IMG/VR virus record: IMGVR_UViG_3300017679_000013 | Location: 1-40,429 of that record | DNA length: 40,429 nucleotides | Origin: a virus | Reading direction: 5' to 3' (one strand) | Part shown: positions 3,452 through 16,823 of the stretch, in pieces | How the letters are laid out: the number at the start of each line of letters is the position of its first letter | Position numbering within the stretch: position 1 is the first letter of the stretch | The notes under the pieces: generated by a model | What the model was told of the DNA's origin: nothing | The model's database searches: none | What the model saw: only the letters and a program-made list of their open reading frames with translations | Position numbers and translations under genes: made by a program

Positions 3452-4477
3452 CTAGAACCTGATTGAAACCGCTGGGATGCTGCCAGCCGCGATGGCCAGC
3501 ACAATCTCGCGGGCCTTATCTTCGGGAATGTCCATTTCCATGAGCGCAGACTTAGCCGCACCCATAATCTTGCCACGGTGTTCGCGGTCTTGTTCGCGGG
3601 ATAAACGCTCACGTTCAGCCTTAGCCGTTTCATCGGCAATGCGCTTTTGTTCCGCCAGCCGATCAGCCTCAGCCTTGGCGACCTTTGCCCGCTCGGCCTC
3701 AAGCTCGGCCTGATGCTTGCGCTCTGCCTCAAGGCGTGCCTGTTCAGCGGCGCGCTGGGTCTCAAGGATGGCCTCTTGCCGTAGCTTCTCAAGCCGTTCC
3801 TCTTCGGCCTTTCGTGCTTCCTCGGCCAAGCGGACGGCCTCAACCTCGGCCTGACGTGCGGCCTGCTCTTGGCGTAGTCGCTCAAGCTCTGCCCGCTCCT
3901 GTTCTTCACGGGTGATGCGCGCGTGCTGAATGTTCAGCTTTTCAATCGCGGCATCTTTGACGCCCTGAATATGCTCAAGGCGTTCACGGTGGACGTCAGG
4001 GTCAAGCTTCAAATCAGTGAGCCATACAAGGCGCTCTGATACGGTCGCGGCGGTGTCGTCAATGCCGACAAATTCCGCCTTCAAGATCGCCGTTAGCAAG
4101 TCGGTGTGCTTTTGCTCGCGTTCCTTTTCGGCGTTTTCCCAATCCGTCAGCGGCTTGCGAACCTCATCTTCAAGAGCCTCTAGGCGCTCTTTAATCGCAG
4201 ACCCGGCCTCGTTTGCCTGCTTGGTTTTCGTGCGCCATTCCTCGGTCAAACCAAGTCGCGCCTTGTCGATTGCTGTCCGTGTCTTGGCGATCTTGAACGC
4301 CATAGAGCGCACTTCATCGCGGCCTTTGTTGGTCGAAACGTCGCCTGAAACCTTGGCGACTTCTTCCTTTAAGCGCTCATAGAAGGCCTCGAATTTTTCT
4401 TGATTAAGGATGGCCAGCGCTGGGTTTTCTTGGACCTGCACCACTACATCTTTAGTCGGCTCTAAAACTTCGATCAT
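3452..4477 (-). CDS. Long coiled-coil phage protein of the recombination module
   Basis: 341 residues from the ATG at 4477 (AAGGAG eight bases upstream, and overlapping the previous stop as ATGA). The N-terminal domain (residues ~1-130) is helical and contains DEVRSMAFKIAKTRTAIDKA and EVRKPLTDWENAEKERE. Then a very regular charged coiled coil rich in A, E, R, K and Q runs to about residue 300, ending in a small globular piece. Proteins of this design commonly sit beside exonuclease or RecT genes in temperate phages, but no enzymatic motif is visible. A host-nuclease inhibitor (Gam-like) or recombination scaffold is possible and unproven. Confidence 0.8.
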   Translation of the reverse strand: MIEVLEPTKDVVVQVQENPALAILNQEKFEAFYERLKEEVAKVSGDVSTNKGRDEVRSMAFKIAKTRTAIDKARLGLTEEWRTKTKQANEAGSAIKERLEALEDEVRKPLTDWENAEKEREQKHTDLLTAILKAEFVGIDDTAATVSERLVWLTDLKLDPDVHRERLEHIQGVKDAAIEKLNIQHARITREEQERAELERLRQEQAARQAEVEAVRLAEEARKAEEERLEKLRQEAILETQRAAEQARLEAERKHQAELEAERAKVAKAEADRLAEQKRIADETAKAERERLSREQDREHRGKIMGAAKSALMEMDIPEDKAREIVLAIAAGSIPAVSIRF

Positions 4478-4641: not shown

Positions 4642-4823
4642 GCGATCCCCCAAAAAATCAGGACAAAAACCAAACCAACCACAACCGCACCGGCCGCAAA
4701 CCGCAGCGGTGACACGTAGTCGTCGGGGCGTGCCAAGTCAGCCGCGTCTTCGTGCGCCTGCCAGTCGACAGTCTCAACGCGGCGCATAAGATATTCGGCG
4801 GAAATGCGGTTCGCGTCGGTCAT
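4638..4823 (-). CDS. Small C-terminally anchored membrane protein
   Basis: 61 residues. The first ~38 are charged and soluble (MTDANRISAEYLMRRVETVD...), and the rest is one hydrophobic segment, FAAGAVVVGLVFVLIFWGIA, at the very C-terminus. It is therefore a tail-anchored inner-membrane protein. Both ends overlap neighbours as ATGA. I do not recognise a family; small membrane proteins in early-left operons can act on host metabolism or superinfection, but nothing here shows that. Confidence 0.75.
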   Translation of the reverse strand: MTDANRISAEYLMRRVETVDWQAHEDAADLARPDDYVSPLRFAAGAVVVGLVFVLIFWGIA

Positions 4824-5704
4824 GATTGCACCTCAACAAACTTGCCAGCCTCAGCGCGATACACACGTCCAGCCTTTAGTTTGCCCTTGCCAATGCAGCC
4901 CGTCGCAATGCCGTTGCACTTTCCTTGGTCGTCATAGCTGGCGAGCGAAACCCATGTGCCATCTATCCCCGTAACGGTCGAACGATTGCCCGCAGACATG
5001 GCGACACCATTGGTGCCTTCAATCGCCAGTTTGGAGTAATTGCCCGACGCTGCCAGTTTGGAGTCATTGCCCGACGCTGCCAGTTGGGAGTAATTGCCCG
5101 ACGCTGCCAGTTGGGAGTCATAGCCCGACGCTGCCAGTTTGGAGTAATTGCCCGACGCTGCCAGTTGGGAGTAACTGCCCGACGCTGCCAGTTTGGAGTA
5201 ATTGCCCGACGCTGCCAGTTTGGAGTAATTGCCCGACGCTGCCAGTTGGGAGTAACTGCCCGACGCTGCCAGTTGGGAGCCATGGCCCGACGCTGCCAGT
5301 TGGGAGTAATTGCCCGACGCTGCCAGTTGGGAGTCATAGCCCGACGCTACTGTAACTCCATAGGCGGGTTTACAAAGGCTTATAATGCCGTCCACAGCGG
5401 ACTTGATGAACGCGGGCAATGTCAACTCTGCGCGGATTGCAATGCTAGCCGTAACGCTCTTGTCGCCATCGTGCTTAACCGCGCCGACTGCCTCAACAGT
5501 CATATAGCGGGTTAGCTTGCCGTCATCTTGGATCAACGGGTAATAATTCCACACGTCCAGCGGATTGGCGCAGAAGTGAAACCCGCGCTCGCATTGAATA
5601 GGATCGCCGTCAATCGTGTAGGTCTGGCCCACCTCAAACTGATGATCGCGGCACTTAAGTTCGTGGGTGGCGGCCTTGAAGCCGGTGACTGGAGAAGTTG
5701 TCAT
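4820..5704 (-). CDS. DUF7666-like protein with twelve nonapeptide repeats
   Basis: 294 residues from the ATG at 5704. The first ~130 residues resemble the DUF7666 domain often seen in phages, with GFKAATHELKCRDHQFEVGQ and CERGFHFCANPLDVWNYY. Next come twelve near-identical nine-residue units of the form ASGNYSQLA, two degenerate units (IEGTNGVAM, SAGNRSTVT), and a C-terminal beta domain ending GRVYRAEAGKFVEVQS. Strict periodicity with small residues at fixed positions predicts a right-handed beta-solenoid, comparable in design to pentapeptide or ice-nucleation repeats. The role is unknown; DNA mimicry or surface binding are possibilities only. Confidence 0.85.
   Translation of the reverse strand: MTTSPVTGFKAATHELKCRDHQFEVGQTYTIDGDPIQCERGFHFCANPLDVWNYYPLIQDDGKLTRYMTVEAVGAVKHDGDKSVTASIAIRAELTLPAFIKSAVDGIISLCKPAYGVTVASGYDSQLAASGNYSQLAASGHGSQLAASGSYSQLAASGNYSKLAASGNYSKLAASGSYSQLAASGNYSKLAASGYDSQLAASGNYSQLAASGNDSKLAASGNYSKLAIEGTNGVAMSAGNRSTVTGIDGTWVSLASYDDQGKCNGIATGCIGKGKLKAGRVYRAEAGKFVEVQS
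5026..5349 (-). repeat. 12 x 27-bp tandem repeat inside the DUF7666-like gene
   Basis: Twelve in-frame 27-bp units, visible on the plus strand as the recurring core CCCGACGCTGCCAGTT followed by (T/G)GGAG and a variable trinucleotide. Each encodes ASGxxS(Q/K)LA. Units differ mainly in the codons for residues 4-5 (NY, YD, SY, HG, ND) and in Q versus K. Near-identical DNA indicates recent expansion or ongoing homogenisation, and the copy number could change by slippage without breaking the frame. Confidence 0.95.
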
Positions 5705-5976
5705 CACGCAGCCACCTTCATCGAGCGAACTGCAACCCACGCGGCATGGTGCGCCGCAAAATCGTCGTTCATCTCAATGACGCGGGCGCGGTCGAAGTTT
5801 GGCACCTCGTCTTCCAGCACGTCGATAATGCCGTGAAGCGCGTCCATGCCAGCCAGCTCACCGATGATGGCAAGCGAGGCCAAGAATGGATCGGTCGCGT
5901 CTTCAATCGCGTTCGCGCCATAGTTCACCACGTCTTCACGGATGCGGTCGGCGTCGGTTGGGTCTTGTGGGTTCAT
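5704..5976 (-). CDS. Hypothetical acidic protein, first gene of the left operon
   Basis: 90 residues starting MNPQDPTDADRIREDVV at the ATG at 5976, preceded by GGGAGA at a normal distance and about 25 bases from the predicted leftward start point. The protein is acidic and helical (IEDATDPFLASLAIIGELAGMDALHGIIDVLEDEV) and ends DDFAAHHAAWVAVRSMKVAA. As the promoter-proximal gene it would be expressed first after induction, a slot used in lambda for N. It has no arginine-rich N-peptide, so I infer no antitermination role. Function unknown. Confidence 0.7.
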   Translation of the reverse strand: MNPQDPTDADRIREDVVNYGANAIEDATDPFLASLAIIGELAGMDALHGIIDVLEDEVPNFDRARVIEMNDDFAAHHAAWVAVRSMKVAA

Positions 5977-9054: not shown

Positions 9055-9140
9055 CCCGCGCCCTAACCACCCTTTTCGCCATCACCTTTTCCGCCGCTTG
9101 CTGGTGGATTGTTTTTTTAATTGTGAGGTCTGTGTCGTGA
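9051..9140 (+). CDS. Very small membrane peptide (29 aa)
   Basis: The frame encodes MTRALTTLFAITFSAACWWI followed by VFLIVRSVS, a single hydrophobic helix with one basic residue at each end. Its ATG overlaps the methylase stop (ATGA) and its TGA overlaps the GTG start of the next gene (GTGA), so it exactly bridges the two. No function is known; it could also simply couple translation between its neighbours. Confidence 0.5.
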   Translation: MTRALTTLFAITFSAACWWIVFLIVRSVS

Positions 9141-9883
9141 CGTTCCATGATTTTAACCTGAAAGTCCCAGTCGCAACCGTGCCAGAACACAAGGCGCGGC
9201 TTATTCGCGACGGCATCACGCGCAACGAATATCGCAGCCGGTTTGGCATGGATGAGGCGAGTGAGAGGTATTTTGATCACCATGAAGATAGCAAGAAACT
9301 GCTTGAGGTCTTGGAAAAGACGCCGCCTAAACCACGAGGCAAGTTTACCATTCAAGAACTCATCCTTGACACGCTTATCCAGCGCAGAGAGGGCTTGAAC
9401 GCGGACGAGATCTCGCGCGTCATTCAGGTGAATAAGCGGGTTATCCAGAACGCGCTCTCCATCCTGAAAAAGGAAGGCCAAGTGCGCGGCGAACGTTTCC
9501 CCGGCGCAATGAAGGCGGGCCTGTATTGGTTTGCTACAGCGTCGGCAATGCCAGCCAAAGAGCAACACCACGGCATCAGCGACTTCTACCCGACCGTGAT
9601 CGATATTCAGAAAGTCACGGCGGTTGCTTTCCAATCGTCATTCCGCGCCATTATGTCAGAAAGCCGCTCGCCATCTGTCGTGCGCGCTCGGTTTGCTGCC
9701 ATCTATCTAGCCGAGAAGCTGAAGAAGCTATCAACCACGGACCTAGCGCGTCGGTTTGCGCGGCAGGATCACACTACGGTCATTCACGCACTCAAGCGCG
9801 CTCGTGAGTTTATCCGGCTTGAGCCTGACTTTGCGGCGAAGGTCGATGCGGCTGAGGCTGAATTGGCGAAGGGGCGGAAATGA
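9137..9883 (+). CDS. Winged-helix protein with C-terminal DnaA domain IV (replication initiator candidate)
   Basis: 248 residues from the GTG at 9137, with GAGG eight bases upstream. Residues ~70-132 form a winged helix (FTIQELILDTLIQRREGL, then EISRVIQVNKRVIQNAL). Residues ~152-228 match the DnaA box-binding domain, including SRSPSVVRARFAAIYLA and the signature ARQDHTTVIHALKRA. The AAA+ ATPase domain of DnaA is absent. It is followed by helicase, nuclease and primase genes, so it probably recognises the phage origin and recruits the replication proteins. A consensus DnaA box occurs at 14964. Confidence 0.88.
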   Translation: MTFHDFNLKVPVATVPEHKARLIRDGITRNEYRSRFGMDEASERYFDHHEDSKKLLEVLEKTPPKPRGKFTIQELILDTLIQRREGLNADEISRVIQVNKRVIQNALSILKKEGQVRGERFPGAMKAGLYWFATASAMPAKEQHHGISDFYPTVIDIQKVTAVAFQSSFRAIMSESRSPSVVRARFAAIYLAEKLKKLSTTDLARRFARQDHTTVIHALKRAREFIRLEPDFAAKVDAAEAELAKGRK

Positions 9884-10119
9884 TCCCTAAAACCCTATCC
9901 CAGCGCGTCCAAGCCGTCTTACCCTTTTACGAGAAATGCGCCACGGTGAACGACGTGCAGCTCATTTACAAAAGGACATACGAGCTTCGCGGCGACATCA
10001 GAACCGCCCTCGAAGGCACCGACCCTGATTTACGTTTCGACGCCCGCAAAGCCTCGACCGCGCTAAAGCTCCATTACTGGAACGCATATCGCCGCGTCGA
10101 ACATAAGCGTGCCGCATGA
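9880..10119 (+). CDS. Small hypothetical protein of the replication operon
   Basis: 79 residues, basic and helical: LSQRVQAVLPFYEKCATVND, then TYELRGDIRTALEG and ALKLHYWNAYRRVEHKR. It is coupled by ATGA overlaps to the initiator-like gene before it and the helicase after it. I do not recognise a family. A helicase-loading or initiator-bridging role is possible from context only. Confidence 0.65.
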   Translation: MIPKTLSQRVQAVLPFYEKCATVNDVQLIYKRTYELRGDIRTALEGTDPDLRFDARKASTALKLHYWNAYRRVEHKRAA

Positions 10120-11501
10120 TTACCCTTCGCGACTATCAGCAAGAAATGATAGCCGACATCAGGGGCGCTCTAACCCGTGCGCGTCGTGTTCTGGCGCAGG
10201 CTCCGACTGGGGCGGGCAAAACTGCGCTCGGTTCGTTCATGGTGTCTCAAACGGCCTCGAAGGGTTTGCGTTCCATGTTTTTGGTGCATCGCACTGAATT
10301 ACTAAGGCAGACCTCAGCGGCTTTCCTGCGCCAAGATATTGAGCACGACACCATTCAGGCGGGCAAAGGCTTTAACCCGCACGTTAAAACCCATGTAGGG
10401 GCCATTCAGACGGTCGCTAACAGGCTTGAACTTGTTCCCGCACCTGACTTGCTTATTGTCGATGAAGCCCATCACGCGGTCTCTGAGAGTTGGTCGCGGG
10501 TTATCTCTGCGCTTAACCCCCGCTTTATCGTTGGCCTATCTGCTACCCCGTGCCGCCTAGATGGTCGCGGGCTGCAAGAGCAGTTTGACATTCTAGTGCC
10601 TGGGCCACCCGTCGCGACCCTAATTGAGCGCGGGTTCCTGTCGCCTTATCGGATTTATGCGCCCCCAAGTGCGGTCGACTTTTCGGCAATCCGAACCACG
10701 GCAGGCGACTATAACAAGGCGGACCTAGCCGAGGCCATGGACAAGCCGACCATCACTGGCGACGCGGTTTCCCATTATCACAAGCTGACACCGAATAAGC
10801 GGGCCGTGGTTTTCTGCACATCGATCGCGCACGCCGAACATGTGAGGGACGCCTTTATCGCTGCGGGCTATTCGGCTGCGACGGTGGACGGCACCATGAA
10901 GCCCGCTGATCGCGCCGCCGTTCTATCCAAGTTCGAGACTGGCGAAATCAAGGTCCTGACATCGTGCGACCTAGTTTCGGAAGGGTTTGACCTGCCCGCT
11001 ATTGAGGTGGCTATCTCATTAAGGCCGACAAAATCCCTGTCGCTCTGGATTCAGCAAGTAGGCCGCGCGCTTAGAGTTTGCCACGGAAAAGACGAGGCCG
11101 TCATTCTCGATCACGTCGGCAACACCATGATTCACGGTTTGCCCGATCAAGAGCGCGAATGGACCCTAGACGCCAAGCCACGGCGGAAATCAGATCGCGG
11201 GCAAATCACGACTATTCGCCAGTGCAAGTCCTGTTTCACCATTCATGCGCCCGCCCCTGTCTGCCCGACTTGCGGCCATGTTTACGAAATCACCGCGCGT
11301 GAAATCGAGCAGGTGGACGGCGAGCTGATCGAATTCGACAAGGCGCGCGCAAAAATCGAATTGGAAAAAGCGCGTGAACTGGCGAAACGGCAAACCGCAC
11401 AAGCTAGATCGCGCGAGGCCCTAGAGGAATTGGCGCGCGCTCGTGGGTATAAGCCCGGATGGGTCGACCATATGCTGAAAAGCAGGGGGGCGAGAGGATG
11501 A
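10116..11501 (+). CDS. DEAD/DEAH-box superfamily 2 helicase with zinc ribbon
   Basis: 461 residues. The SF2 motifs are in order: RDYQQEMI (Q-like), Walker A APTGAGKT (29-36), DEAH (116-119), SATP (142-145), the C-terminal RecA fold with VVFCTSIAHA, SEGFDLPA and motif VI QQVGRALR (313-320). A four-cysteine zinc ribbon (C370, C373, C383, C386) follows, then a charged helical tail. These enzymes translocate on duplex DNA and are common in phage replication cassettes. Overlaps at both ends place it in one transcription unit with the VRR-NUC nuclease. Confidence 0.93.
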   Translation: MITLRDYQQEMIADIRGALTRARRVLAQAPTGAGKTALGSFMVSQTASKGLRSMFLVHRTELLRQTSAAFLRQDIEHDTIQAGKGFNPHVKTHVGAIQTVANRLELVPAPDLLIVDEAHHAVSESWSRVISALNPRFIVGLSATPCRLDGRGLQEQFDILVPGPPVATLIERGFLSPYRIYAPPSAVDFSAIRTTAGDYNKADLAEAMDKPTITGDAVSHYHKLTPNKRAVVFCTSIAHAEHVRDAFIAAGYSAATVDGTMKPADRAAVLSKFETGEIKVLTSCDLVSEGFDLPAIEVAISLRPTKSLSLWIQQVGRALRVCHGKDEAVILDHVGNTMIHGLPDQEREWTLDAKPRRKSDRGQITTIRQCKSCFTIHAPAPVCPTCGHVYEITAREIEQVDGELIEFDKARAKIELEKARELAKRQTAQARSREALEELARARGYKPGWVDHMLKSRGARG

Positions 11502-11851
11502 CCCCGAATTGCGAAAAAGCGCGCCCCTTATCAGCATCACAAGCCCACTCAGACCTCGTGAACCGGCTCCTGATCGCGCTATCCCAGCGCGGCCATATGG
11601 TCACGAAATTCACCACAGGCACGGGCTTTACCCAATATGGCGCGCGTATCTCGTTCGGCTGCCCCGGCTGGGCTGACATCATCGGCACGACTCCGACGGG
11701 CCAATTTATAGCGGTCGAGGCCAAGACAGGCACGGGCCGCTTGCAACCAAACCAAAAAGCATTTCGCGAGCAAGTCGAAAAGCGCGGTGGAATTTTTATC
11801 ACTGCCCGCTCTGAAACTGACCTCGACCAACTTGACCTTCTTAAAAGCTAG
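11498..11851 (+). CDS. VRR-NUC domain nuclease
   Basis: 117 residues from the ATG at 11498, overlapping the helicase stop. It has the VRR-NUC pattern: SFGCPGWADIIGTTPTGQFI leading to AVEAKTGTGRLQPNQKAF, i.e. the G-x-PG-x-x-D and E-x-K metal-binding core of a small PD-(D/E)XK nuclease. Stand-alone VRR-NUC proteins are frequently paired with SF2 helicases in phages and are thought to resolve branched DNA during replication or recombination; that specific activity is not shown here. Confidence 0.9.
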   Translation: MTPNCEKARPLSASQAHSDLVNRLLIALSQRGHMVTKFTTGTGFTQYGARISFGCPGWADIIGTTPTGQFIAVEAKTGTGRLQPNQKAFREQVEKRGGIFITARSETDLDQLDLLKS

Positions 11852-11859
11852 GCCACCCC

Positions 11860-14151
11860 ATGATTACCGAGACAGTCGCTTTAACCGACGCCCAAATTGC
11901 CTTCCGCGACTTCTGCCGCTCCGTTCACTTGGATCCGGGGCACAATCCCGTGCCGACACATGGCAAGGTGAAGCGTTTCGACGTGATCGACGCCGACGGA
12001 CGGAAAAAGAAAAATCGCGGATGGTATGCCTTCTACACAGATGGCCGACCCGCTGGCGTGGTGTGCGATCATGCGTTCGGGGTAAAACACACTTGGAAAT
12101 ATGACGGCGAAATCCGCAAGTTTACTAAGGAGCAATGGGAATCAGAGCGCCGTGAAATGCGGGCCGAGCGCAAACGCCGCCACGAGCAGCAGCTTGCGGA
12201 CTATGCTCTGGCGACACGAAAGGCGGCGGCTAAGCTTGAGTTATCATCTATTCCAGACCAAGATCACGCCTATCTCGCTAAAAAGCGCATCACGGCACAT
12301 AATGCGCGCGCGATCGGCAAGACCCTGCTTATCCCGATCTATGGCCCAGACCGCGAGCTAATGTCCGTTCAAGAGATCAAGCCGGACGGGTCTAAAAAGA
12401 TGTTTCCCGGCGCGCCATCCAAGGCGGGTTATTCTATTCTTGGAAAAGAGCCCAACTCTAGCTCGATCATAATTGTGTGCGAGGGTTGGGCAACTGGCGC
12501 GACCTTATCTCAGGCCGTTCCTGAATCCTGCGTGCTAGTCTCTTTCAGCGCCCAAAACCTGCCCATAGTCGCGGATATGGCGTCAAAGCAATATCGCCAC
12601 GCGCGCCTTATTATGGCCGCCGACGACGACCGCGAAACCGAAAAGCGGACGGGCAAAAATCCGGGTCTAGATGCCGCCAAACAAGCTGCGCGGGCTACAA
12701 ACTCGGATTTAGCCGTTCCTGTTTTTCACGATTATGACGGCACCGACTTTAACGACATGACCGACCTTAGCCAGATCAGGGACATAATCCTGAAATCGCG
12801 GCCTATCTCGACTAAGATTGAAACCAGCCCGACTATTCAGGCCGAACCCGAATACTATGACGTGGACCCCGAGCTGATCGATTATGACCCGTTCCACGAG
12901 CCCGACCTAACCGAACCCGAATATGACCTAATCGCAGACCTGAAAAGCGCGCCTATATCAGACTGGCGCACCCTCTTGGTTTATGACGACAAGGGAAATG
13001 TGCAGTCCCGCGATTTCGGAAATATGCGCCTCATGCTGATCCATCATGAAGAAATGATTGATGTGTTTGCAAAAGACCTATTCGCCTCGCAAATCATGGT
13101 CACGAATGCGCCATGGGATAATCAAAAAGAACCGCGCCTAATCACCGATGACGACATATCCCACGCCCGCGAATGGTTCCAGCGGCACGGGTCAAAACCT
13201 AGCCAAGGTGAAACCTTGGAGGCTATCAGGCTAGCGGCAAATCATAACGCATACGACCCTGTTATCGACTATCTCGCCTCACTTAAATGGGACGGCAAAC
13301 CGCGTCTTGATAACATGCTGACCTATTATTTCGGCGCCCAAAACACTGAATTCACGCCAGTCGCGTCGGCAAAATTCATGATTTCGGCGGTGGCACGCGC
13401 GCTTAAACCCGGCTGCAAAGTCGACACCATGCTCATTCTTGAAGGTCCACAAGGCGCGAAAAAGTCGTCTGGGATTGCCGCTTTATTTGGCGAGCAGGTT
13501 ACGCGCTCATCTACCAATCTGTTCGACTCCACAAAAATAGCCGTCGAGATCATGACTGGCGCGTGGTGCATAGAGGTCGCTGAAATGGCCGCGCTGCTAA
13601 AACAGCAGAATGCGAACGAGAAAATCAAGGCCATCATCACGACACAGGTTGACACGGTGCGCCTATCTTATGCCCGCGTGACAAGCCAGTTCCCGCGCCG
13701 TTCAATCCTCGTGGCAACCATAAACCCCGGCGACAATGGCTATCTGTCTGACATGACGGGGAATCGCCGCTACTGGCCTGTCGTAGTCTCGAATATTGAT
13801 ATAGATGGCCTACGCGCAGATCGTGACCAACTATGGGCAGAAGCGGTGGCCAGATATAAGGCGCACGAGCCATGGTGGCTAGAAGATCAAGATATGGTAC
13901 ATGTCGCCCAGCAAGAGGCCGCAGAGCGTGTCGAGGTGCATCCATGGGACGAATCCCTCATGATGGATCACGACCTGATGCACCGCGAATTCTTTGTCAT
14001 GTCCGATGCGTTCTCTAGTCTGGGAATTCCTGTCAAGGATCGGAATATGCACGCGCAGAAAACGGTTTCAGGGGCGCTAAAGAGATTGGGTTACGCCCAG
14101 ACTGTCCGCCGCCTAAATGGCAAGGTTATGCGGGTCTGGGAACGGGTTTAA
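11860..14151 (+). CDS. Primase-helicase fusion (TOPRIM + VirE-type ATPase)
   Basis: 763 residues. The N-terminal part (to ~130) resembles the DUF/zinc-free primase leader of P4-like proteins. A TOPRIM domain at ~200-310 has the glutamate in CEGWATG (207-213) and the acidic AADDD (253-257). After an acidic linker, residues ~455-690 form a virulence-associated-E (VirE) AAA+ helicase with a Walker A EGPQGAKKSS (528-537) and GNRRYWPV. The protein would prime and unwind at the fork. Its stop overlaps the stop of a convergent gene by four bases. Confidence 0.9.
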   Translation: MITETVALTDAQIAFRDFCRSVHLDPGHNPVPTHGKVKRFDVIDADGRKKKNRGWYAFYTDGRPAGVVCDHAFGVKHTWKYDGEIRKFTKEQWESERREMRAERKRRHEQQLADYALATRKAAAKLELSSIPDQDHAYLAKKRITAHNARAIGKTLLIPIYGPDRELMSVQEIKPDGSKKMFPGAPSKAGYSILGKEPNSSSIIIVCEGWATGATLSQAVPESCVLVSFSAQNLPIVADMASKQYRHARLIMAADDDRETEKRTGKNPGLDAAKQAARATNSDLAVPVFHDYDGTDFNDMTDLSQIRDIILKSRPISTKIETSPTIQAEPEYYDVDPELIDYDPFHEPDLTEPEYDLIADLKSAPISDWRTLLVYDDKGNVQSRDFGNMRLMLIHHEEMIDVFAKDLFASQIMVTNAPWDNQKEPRLITDDDISHAREWFQRHGSKPSQGETLEAIRLAANHNAYDPVIDYLASLKWDGKPRLDNMLTYYFGAQNTEFTPVASAKFMISAVARALKPGCKVDTMLILEGPQGAKKSSGIAALFGEQVTRSSTNLFDSTKIAVEIMTGAWCIEVAEMAALLKQQNANEKIKAIITTQVDTVRLSYARVTSQFPRRSILVATINPGDNGYLSDMTGNRRYWPVVVSNIDIDGLRADRDQLWAEAVARYKAHEPWWLEDQDMVHVAQQEAAERVEVHPWDESLMMDHDLMHREFFVMSDAFSSLGIPVKDRNMHAQKTVSGALKRLGYAQTVRRLNGKVMRVWERV

Positions 14152-14681
14152 AGCTGCGCGGCCTTAATCTCGTGGCGCAAAACCTGCATCGCCTTTTCGT
14201 GGCGCGCCTTTACCCTGTCCAGCTCCGCCGCAATATCCTGCACGTCATCTAGCGCCTTCTCGATCCGTGTCGTGCCTGTCGTGCGCTCTACATGGCGCAG
14301 AGGCATAGGTCGCGTTCTGGCACCGCACAAAGCCCAGACATTCGCAATATTCGCAACACGCTCGGCGACCTCTAGCGGCATATCATACCACCCCGGCACC
14401 TGCTCGTCGGTCGGATCTGGAACGGTGAATTGAACGGCGAATTCATCGCTCATAGCCTCATACATGGCGCGCACCTGCGACGCCCGAAGCATTGCCATGT
14501 TCACGACCTCGCCCAGCCTGTCGATATGTTTCTGAGGCATAGCGCACCTAATCAGCCAGTTCGAAATCGACTGATATGAGACCCCTAGAAGCTCTGCGGC
14601 CTGATCATTTGTGAGCCCTAATGTGGAGATTAAAATCTCACCTCGATAGCCGTTTTTTACCCGTTTTGAGCGCTTGTTCAT
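14148..14681 (-). CDS. Convergent helix-turn-helix regulator
   Basis: 177 residues on the minus strand, the only such gene in the right half. The N-terminus is basic (MNKRSKRVKNGYR) and leads into a helix-turn-helix, GLTNDQAAELLGVSYQSISN plus WLIRCAMPQKHIDRL. The C-terminal half is helical (ALDDVQDIAAELDRVKARHE), suitable for dimerisation. A GTGTTACACGT repeat begins two bases upstream of its ATG, so the repeats described for 14683-14931 may be its operators. Its position between replication and late genes suggests timing control; pointing back into the primase gene allows antisense effects. Target and role are inferred. Confidence 0.8.
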   Translation of the reverse strand: MNKRSKRVKNGYRGEILISTLGLTNDQAAELLGVSYQSISNWLIRCAMPQKHIDRLGEVVNMAMLRASQVRAMYEAMSDEFAVQFTVPDPTDEQVPGWYDMPLEVAERVANIANVWALCGARTRPMPLRHVERTTGTTRIEKALDDVQDIAAELDRVKARHEKAMQVLRHEIKAAQL

Positions 14682-14682
14682 G

Positions 14683-14754
14683 GTGTTACACGTCCCGAAA
14701 AAATGTTACAGGTCAAAAGTCAATAAAAACAACGATGTTACACGTGTTACACGT
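14683..14754 (+). repeat. Left group of GTGTTACACGT iterons
   Basis: Four copies: 14683-14693 (GTGTTACACGT), 14703-14713 (ATGTTACAGGT), 14735-14745 (ATGTTACACGT) and 14744-14754 (GTGTTACACGT). The last two overlap with a 9-bp period. The first almost touches the start codon of the helix-turn-helix gene. Confidence 0.92.
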
Positions 14755-14858
14755 ATTTGGCCTAGTGAAAAATTCCTACCAAACTGATATATCTGTGTCA
14801 ATATTATAATTTATATAATAAAATATCAGTTTCATATACTTTTAGAGATAGAGCATTT

Positions 14859-14931
14859 AGGTGTAACACGTGTAACATCGTTGAATTTAAACGGATTTTT
14901 GATTTTCGGACGTGTAACACACGTGTAACAC
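14859..14931 (-). repeat. Right group of GTGTTACACGT iterons (inverted)
   Basis: Four copies read as ACGTGTAACAC on the plus strand: 14859-14869 (AGGTGTAACAC), 14868-14878 (ACGTGTAACAT), 14910-14920 and 14921-14931 (both ACGTGTAACAC). They mirror the left group, including an overlapping pair with 9-bp period. Confidence 0.92.
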
Positions 14932-14963
14932 CTGATTTCATTCACTTTTTCAAAAATCCGCCC

Positions 14964-14972
14964 TTATCCACA
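14964..14972 (+). promoter_or_regulatory. Consensus DnaA box
   Basis: TTATCCACA, a perfect match to the bacterial DnaA box consensus, 33 bp to the right of the last iteron. The phage encodes its own DnaA-domain-IV protein (9137-9883), so either host DnaA or this protein could bind. A single nine-base match can occur by chance; its position is what makes it notable. Confidence 0.6.
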
Positions 14973-15055
14973 CCCGCCACCTTTACTCGCCAAGAAAACC
15001 ACCCTAAACACACCCTCGGGCAAACCTTCGACGGGCCAACCAAGGACCGCGAAAC

Positions 15056-15580
15056 ATGCAAAACACATCCTGGCACGTTCTCATCGTGCAATCCGGGCAA
15101 GAGACCAAAGCGCGCGACAATCTCGTTGAATGGGGTCGCGTTGAAACCTACCTACCAATGCGGCGCTTCTGGAAGCGCGAGACACGCGGCACTAAACGTG
15201 TCCGCATTGCCTCAGAGGCGGCGCTCTACACGGGTTATTTGTTTTTCAGGTGTGATCTATCGGAAATCGGTGCAAGCCTCTGTGTGGCTAAATCTGGGGC
15301 TTCTAGCGTGCTGATGTTTGACGGCATACCGGCTCAGATTCCAAACGGTCTGGTTCTGGCCATGCGTAAGTCTGAGGAGCTGGGCAAATGGGATGACACC
15401 ATTGCAGAGGCTGAACGCTTCAAGAGTTTGATCGGCAGCCAGATCACCATTAAGGACGGCGTGTTGGCTGGTTTCTTGGCGACGATCACGGCACCATGTG
15501 GGCAAGACAAGGTTTACGCTGAGACGTTGGGGCCCAGACCTATTCGAACGGTGTTGGATGTTAGCGATTTAGTTGCTTGA
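15056..15580 (+). CDS. NusG/RfaH-like transcription antiterminator
   Basis: 174 residues, start supported by AAGGA nine bases before the ATG. Residues ~5-110 match a NusG N-terminal (NGN) domain: SWHVLIVQSGQETKARDNL, VETYLPMRRFW, then ALYTGYLFFRC, the usual Y(L/V)F position, and SVLMFDGIPAQIP. Residues ~125-172 (IGSQITIKDGVLAGFLATIT) resemble a KOW-type domain. NusG paralogues bind RNA polymerase and suppress pausing or termination. Standing first in the late operon, this is the best candidate for the late-gene regulator, replacing a Q-type protein. Confidence 0.85.
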   Translation: MQNTSWHVLIVQSGQETKARDNLVEWGRVETYLPMRRFWKRETRGTKRVRIASEAALYTGYLFFRCDLSEIGASLCVAKSGASSVLMFDGIPAQIPNGLVLAMRKSEELGKWDDTIAEAERFKSLIGSQITIKDGVLAGFLATITAPCGQDKVYAETLGPRPIRTVLDVSDLVA

Positions 15581-16430: not shown

Positions 16431-16823
16431 GTGAGCAAGGTCGCAATTCGCCAGCCACGTTATGCCCAAATCTTTGCCGATGATCCTGAAATGTGCGCGG
16501 TTGCTACTGAGAAGTGGCGCGAAGTCGTTGAGCATTTAAAGGCAAATGACTGGGTTACGGCTGGTCGATTGTCGGTTGCTGACAGATACGCTCGGGCTTA
16601 TGCCGAATATGAAAAACACTATCCGCAAGCCGTAGCGGAAGGCCCAGTTAAGGTCGGGCCGAATGGTGGTGATCTGTTCAACTTCCTTTGGTCGGTGGTT
16701 GAGAAGCTGAATGAACGCCTTGCCAAGCTAGAGGCAAAACTCAAGATTGATCCTGATGGCGAGGCGACGGTTACGACCGCACGCGGGCCAAAGACTAAGG
16801 CCGATGAGTACCTCGAAGACTGA
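16431..16823 (+). CDS. terS: Terminase small subunit (P27-like)
   Basis: 130 residues from the GTG at 16431. The helical N-terminal half (EKWREVVEHLKANDWVTAGR, then LSVADRYARAYAEYEKHY) follows the pattern of P27-family small terminases, which have a W-x-x-V-x-x-L helix, a D/L spacer and a Y-A-x-A helix. The C-terminus is Lys/Asp-rich. It would recognise the packaging site and hand DNA to the large subunit, whose gene overlaps it by 20 bases. Confidence 0.8.
   Translation: MSKVAIRQPRYAQIFADDPEMCAVATEKWREVVEHLKANDWVTAGRLSVADRYARAYAEYEKHYPQAVAEGPVKVGPNGGDLFNFLWSVVEKLNERLAKLEAKLKIDPDGEATVTTARGPKTKADEYLED

Follow-up and report, generated by a model that had tools for sequence, protein, structure and literature searches.

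A facing array of TGTWACA repeats near a VapE-type primase-helicase gene is a probable phage replication origin

An intergenic array of eight TGTWACA heptamers in the viral DNA analysed here (the window, 40,429 nucleotides) is, judged from its sequence, very probably a phage DNA replication origin. This reading draws on the annotated origins of Sfi21 and P4, on a survey of 61 phage loci chosen by their primase, and on module exchange in sister phages. The best explanation of the array is an origin of a known kind, represented by SaPI Rep and P4 alpha, with the C-terminal domain of the phage's own VapE primase-helicase as its probable reader.

Table 1. Coordinates of the proposed origin and of neighbouring features in the window.
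Feature	Position	Strand	Remarks
Intergenic region with proposed origin	14682..15055	.	Site, dyad and AT scans
Repeat 1, GTGTTACAC	14683..14691	+	Begins 1 bp ahead of the start codon of the - strand HTH gene
Repeat 2, ATGTTACAG	14703..14711	+	
Repeat 3, ATGTTACAC	14735..14743	+	9-bp tandem with repeat 4
Repeat 4, GTGTTACAC	14744..14752	+	Inside ACGTGTTACACGT, a perfect palindrome except at its centre
Repeat 5, GTGTAACAC	14861..14869	-	
Repeat 6, GTGTAACAT	14870..14878	-	9-bp tandem with repeat 5
Repeat 7, GTGTAACAC	14912..14920	-	
Repeat 8, GTGTAACAC	14923..14931	-	
23-bp perfect inverted repeat	Left arm 14730..14752, right arm 14861-14883	+ (left arm)	Centre 14806.5
AT-rich core, proposed unwinding element	14753..14860	.	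Holds nested 10-bp inverted repeat 14781-14790/14823-14832
DnaA box TTATCCACA, exact, single	14964..14972	+	Role doubtful
DnaA-domain-IV protein	9137..9883	+	Bac_DnaA_C 6.9e-16; kept in array-less sisters
DEAD/ResIII helicase	10116..11501	+	Same module as primase
VRR-NUC nuclease	11459..11851	+	Same module as primase
TOPRIM-VapE primase-helicase, proposed initiator	11860..14151	+	Toprim_3 7e-10; VapE-like PF05272 1.3e-66; PDB 7PDS E=8.2e-30
Orphan HTH protein, possible autoregulator	14148..14681	-	Weak HTH matches
NusG-like transcription antiterminator	15056..15580	+	Right of array; NusG 1.8e-10; phrog_6386
Block swapped for other replication genes in both sisters	9887..14992	.	Sister alignment

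The eight heptamers lie within 14684-14930, four in each orientation: the T-form, on the left side, starts at 14684, 14704, 14736 and 14745, and the A-form, on the right side, at 14862, 14871, 14913 and 14924. When up to one mismatch was allowed, TGTTACACGT gave 10 matches in the 40-kb window, all of them inside the array, compared with 1.24 expected; no shuffle reached 10. The 23-bp inverted repeat and the 10-bp repeat nested within it were both perfect and had the same centre. Scoring of all centres placed the best dyad of the window there, with 49 of 68 positions paired versus 36 for the runner-up. The 100-base intervals starting at 14767-14801 reached 77% AT, the maximum of the window, compared with 67% in the next separate region. 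A preliminary description of this DNA had proposed eight facing copies, two inverted repeats on one centre and an AT-rich segment at that centre, and all three features were found as described. Because a single TGTWACA site already comes close to a palindrome (GTGT-T-ACAC, at best ACGTGTTACACGT), the arrangement of four sites facing four depends mostly on the central T/A and the direction of a site is only weakly defined. The outer sites were off the common centre: the pair 14683-14700/14903-14920 is centred on 14801.5. Cumulative GC skew reached its minimum at 15,094, with a turn near 15.09 kb; third-codon-position skew showed no clear replication switch in the window, and GC skew was therefore dropped as proof of an origin.

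To the left of the array, genes for a DNA methyltransferase, the DnaA-domain-IV protein, a ResIII/DEAD helicase, the VRR-NUC nuclease and the TOPRIM-VapE primase-helicase follow one another on the + strand. The HTH gene comes next on the - strand, its start codon abutting repeat 1, and separates the primase-helicase stop codon from the array, which lies 533 bp 3' of it. To the right, the NusG-like gene is followed by an HNH-like gene and a terminase-like gene at 16747 (both read from translations). The earlier view that the array is flanked by an HTH gene and late genes held for the HTH side; the first gene rightward encodes an antiterminator, not a structural late protein. No DNA similar to the region was found in phage or plasmid records except weak AT-rich matches.

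Sister phages were available from two IMG/VR contigs, one giving L002 and the other L003 and L007. They matched the window at the integrase end, in the DnaA-domain gene (about 89% DNA identity) and rightward from 14993/15018 (92-100%). In both, the block carrying the helicase, primase and HTH genes and the repeats was replaced, and the DnaA-domain gene lies outside this block. By names read from translations, the L007 replacement contains RuvC-like, SSB-like and DnaB-like genes and a 285-aa gene, and L002 has a comparable set. No TGTWACA was present in the fetched sister sequence. Because the sisters keep the DnaA-domain gene without the primase block and the heptamers, the array belongs to, or moves with, the helicase-primase module. 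This comparison with related phages, in which the array disappears along with the exchanged primase block, supports the origin reading; replication modules would move between otherwise similar prophages along with their origins. In L007 (8907-9764), GTTCACCCC repeats lie within the 285-aa replication gene, an arrangement resembling that in lambda gene O, and they are probably a lambda-O-type origin in place of that of the window. The window array, being intergenic, differs from a lambda-O-type origin, in which the repeats are inside the initiator gene. Two further differences among these phages were observed. The NusG-like gene is 95% identical in L007; in L002 it is missing from this junction and a different gene begins there. 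A DUF7666 protein of the window (4820-5740, - strand) carries a run of SQLAASGNYSKLAASG-type repeats, with DNA units of about 27 or 54 bp, and several overlapping alignments to the sister suggested a difference in copy number.

The sisters also bear on the identity of the initiator. The DnaA-domain-IV protein had been put forward for this role, together with a consensus DnaA box at 14964. Both sisters retain the gene and their fetched sequence lacks TGTWACA; the protein is thus not supported as initiator and has no need of the array. The DnaA box is indeed exact but single, whereas a DnaA-box origin has several, and it is statistically unremarkable, with about two relaxed boxes expected by chance in 40 kb; it is weak evidence of an origin. 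No exact box was present in the fetched sister sequence. Binding of the origin by host DnaA and the DnaA-domain-IV protein would explain the box and the presence of the DnaA-domain gene 5 kb leftward, but the array repeat is unlike a DnaA box and the protein persists in the sisters where the array does not, and we consider this reading very unlikely.

We next turn to related primases. Among described phages, mostly fetched by primase similarity with Sfi21 added by hand, 10 of 17 had a significant short-repeat array in the 3' gap, each with its own sequence, such as TGTTGCA (Staphylococcus), GGATACC (phiFL4A) or TGTTACACC (LfeSau). A profile of the window primase and two relatives retrieved 80 viral contigs, and the survey set comprised 61 non-redundant phage loci with enough 3' sequence, chosen by primase similarity only. 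An array was scored when one 6-mer occurred at least 6 times in 300 bp near the primase 3' end; the background windows of a locus were those at a distance of over 1 kb. Short-repeat arrays were seen on the 3' side in 32 of 61 loci, compared with 3 of 58 on the 5' side. The repeat occurred in both orientations in 31 of the 32, and in none of the 32 did any background window of the locus equal the array count. The remaining 29 related primases of the 61 showed no such 3' array. Many of the array-less VapE loci (e.g. L335, L339 and L322) had a different, longer C-terminal tail, of the GRDR.GEDRV.F or VYYLP.EL type, and their origins may be elsewhere or of a different kind.

Repeat sequence varied with the end of the primase. 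Counting only DNA after the stop codon, the repeats of 32 loci correlated with the last 40 primase residues (Mantel r=0.67), and the correlation remained after control for the helicase core (partial Mantel r=0.61, p=0.001). The helicase core showed no residual correlation with the repeats given the C-terminus. The analysis was also run with nine more phages, the window included. Primase tails were recognisably similar within each of the GTCCAC, GACTAC/TAGTCA and GTAGAC repeat groups, and APSE-7, another phage with TGTTAC repeats, has a tail (RRVNGKVCRVWERR) similar to that of the window primase (RRLNGKVMRVWERV). This covariation, a correlation drawn from relatives and not from the window protein alone, makes the C-terminal domain of the primase-helicase the likely reader of the repeats. 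A winged helix at the primase C-terminus is a mere candidate, since the structure prediction was poor (pLDDT 40) and unsuited to fold search. We lean towards a VapE origin code in tailed phages, whereby the last ~40 residues would set the repeat used in the array just 3' of the gene, and origins with their specificity would be predictable from sequence and exchanged as one block; in the window phage, an HTH gene would have been inserted into this block and may gate initiation. That so many phages share the layout, and that repeat and tail covary, appear to be novel findings, no earlier report having been found in the limited literature searched.

The array was also sought from DNA alone. Scanning viral contigs for TGTTACACGTGTTACAC gave 22 contigs, and relaxing the pattern raised this to at least 120, versus 84 with a scrambled control pattern. 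By this test, the mere number of tandem-motif matches is not diagnostic, but clustering is: at least 4 copies in 400 bp were present at 77% of test loci versus 13% of control loci. The control motif TGTATCA itself formed a facing array of eight copies with 9-bp spacing at L181:8564-8695, which is probably a further repeat type in this class. The commonest array neighbours were DUF5906/D5, DUF927 and VapE primase-helicases, often less than 200 bp away with the array mostly on their 3' side. A D5/VapE-type gene was near the array in 22 of 47 groups of DNA-selected loci versus 8.7 expected, an enrichment that is partly circular because the seeds were taken from array neighbours, and the protein-first test was used instead. 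About half of the array groups had no primase-helicase-type gene nearby. Of 24 records that carried an array but no primase-helicase close to it, four matched DUF5906 (two above the cut-off), one of these four also matching VapE. In addition, two TGTWACA array groups abut a terminase small-subunit gene. A TGTWACA array alone is therefore no proof of an origin.

The two terminase-adjacent arrays (L075:5918-6228 and L130:7079-7164) lie directly ahead of the small-subunit genes, and no VapE or DUF5906 match was found in either record; they possibly represent another use of the motif, as a packaging site or operator. A ten-site TGTWACA array with conserved spacing was seen in an unannotated phage group of 12 contigs, the L023-like group (e.g. 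L028:628-943); the L028 record contained no VapE or DUF5906 match. A packaging (cos/pac) site for the small terminase, which the terminase-adjacent groups bring to mind, is an extremely unlikely role for the window array: the array is 1.8 kb from the terminase-like gene and belongs to the replication block that was exchanged, the right flank being retained in the sisters.

The position of the HTH gene raises the question of an operator. In an operator without origin function, an HTH dimer bound to the palindromic sites would repress its own leftward promoter and control the NusG-like gene. The near-palindromic sites, the first of them abutting the HTH start codon, and the divergence of the genes on either side are all consistent with this. 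However, promoter-like sites were no commoner than by chance, and neither the AT-rich core nor the conserved place of arrays 3' of VapE primases in other phages would be explained. In L043, one contig of the DNA-only scan, an array of seven sites overlaps a TOPRIM-VapE primase related to that of the window (phmmer E=1.5e-75) at its 3' end; a methyltransferase gene is next and no HTH gene lies between primase and array, so the HTH protein is not needed there. We regard the operator as an improbable sole function. In a refinement of the best explanation, the array would be the origin for the primase-helicase and the HTH protein would compete for its sites, coupling transcription and initiation. 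The HTH gene sits in the gap from primase to array, the sister modules contain no counterpart of it, and in plasmid pRN1 the replication protein is accompanied by a repressor gene (PMC4234260). However, the searches recovered no relatives of the HTH protein, and its predicted structure was too poor for fold search (pLDDT 47); we hold this dual role to be a tentative possibility.

With the array as origin, the VapE-type primase-helicase would use its C-terminal domain to bind the repeats on either side and would assemble as two helicase rings, one per arm. The rings would melt the AT-rich core, and forks would be primed in both directions. Of the bidirectional origin with paired initiator arrays that had been proposed previously, the origin and its facing arrays are thus retained on the strength of Sfi21 and P4, the survey and the sisters, whereas the suggested initiator and DnaA box are not. 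Few environmental phages have a known origin. Should the rule relating tail to repeat hold, the start site, initiator and repeat of many VapE-type phages could be read from sequence, and origin specificity could be tested by exchanging the ~40-residue tail against the 9-bp repeat.

Several known systems share parts of this arrangement. In SaPI Rep and Cch2 (SCCmec), the C-terminal domain binds repeats downstream of the protein's own gene (PMC7581432). The window resembles SaPI Rep in its VapE-type helicase domain, which gave a match to PDB entry 7PDS, a VapE-type helicase ('Similar to D. nodosus vapE'), and in a short-repeat array downstream of the gene. Unlike SaPI Rep, the window protein adds a TOPRIM primase domain, the HTH gene lies between gene and array, the repeat is another one, and the element is a phage and not an island. 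P4 also has a TOPRIM primase-helicase with short repeats 3' of its gene: crr, just 3' of alpha, contains TGTTCACC repeats in both orientations, some 9 bp apart. P4 differs in that repeat and in having a separate ori upstream of alpha. The type 1 repeats of P4 were not found in the array, the densest GTTCA cluster in the window (4 per 400 bp) being at 3613, outside it, and the window primase showed no similarity to the C-terminal origin-binding domain of P4 alpha (probability 0.13% by hhalign, the profile being shallow).

Lactobacillus phage LfeSau and Hamiltonella phage APSE-7 have TGTTACACC and TGTTACG repeats, respectively, 3' of the VapE gene; these gaps carry no origin annotation, and in LfeSau the primase gene is separate. 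Origins 3' of primase-helicase genes have been proposed for plasmid pRN1 and phage BIP-1 (PMC4234260). In Sfi21 (AF115103, 34487-34784), an annotated 302-bp origin lies directly 3' of the primase, with tandem TTAGTTAC facing GTAACTAA, 55-nt imperfect inverted arms and an AT-rich core; it is the densest GTTAC cluster of the Sfi21 genome. This element is reported to function as an origin of replication that infection switches on, and to hamper the phage when supplied in many copies (PMC6356513). Its unit is an 8-bp TTAGTTAC-type repeat, compared with the 9-bp TGTTACACG of the window, and the two primases are only distantly related. The window array nevertheless resembles the Sfi21 origin in its non-coding facing tandem repeats, its AT-rich core, its GTTAC core and its place 3' of the primase, with the HTH gene intervening.
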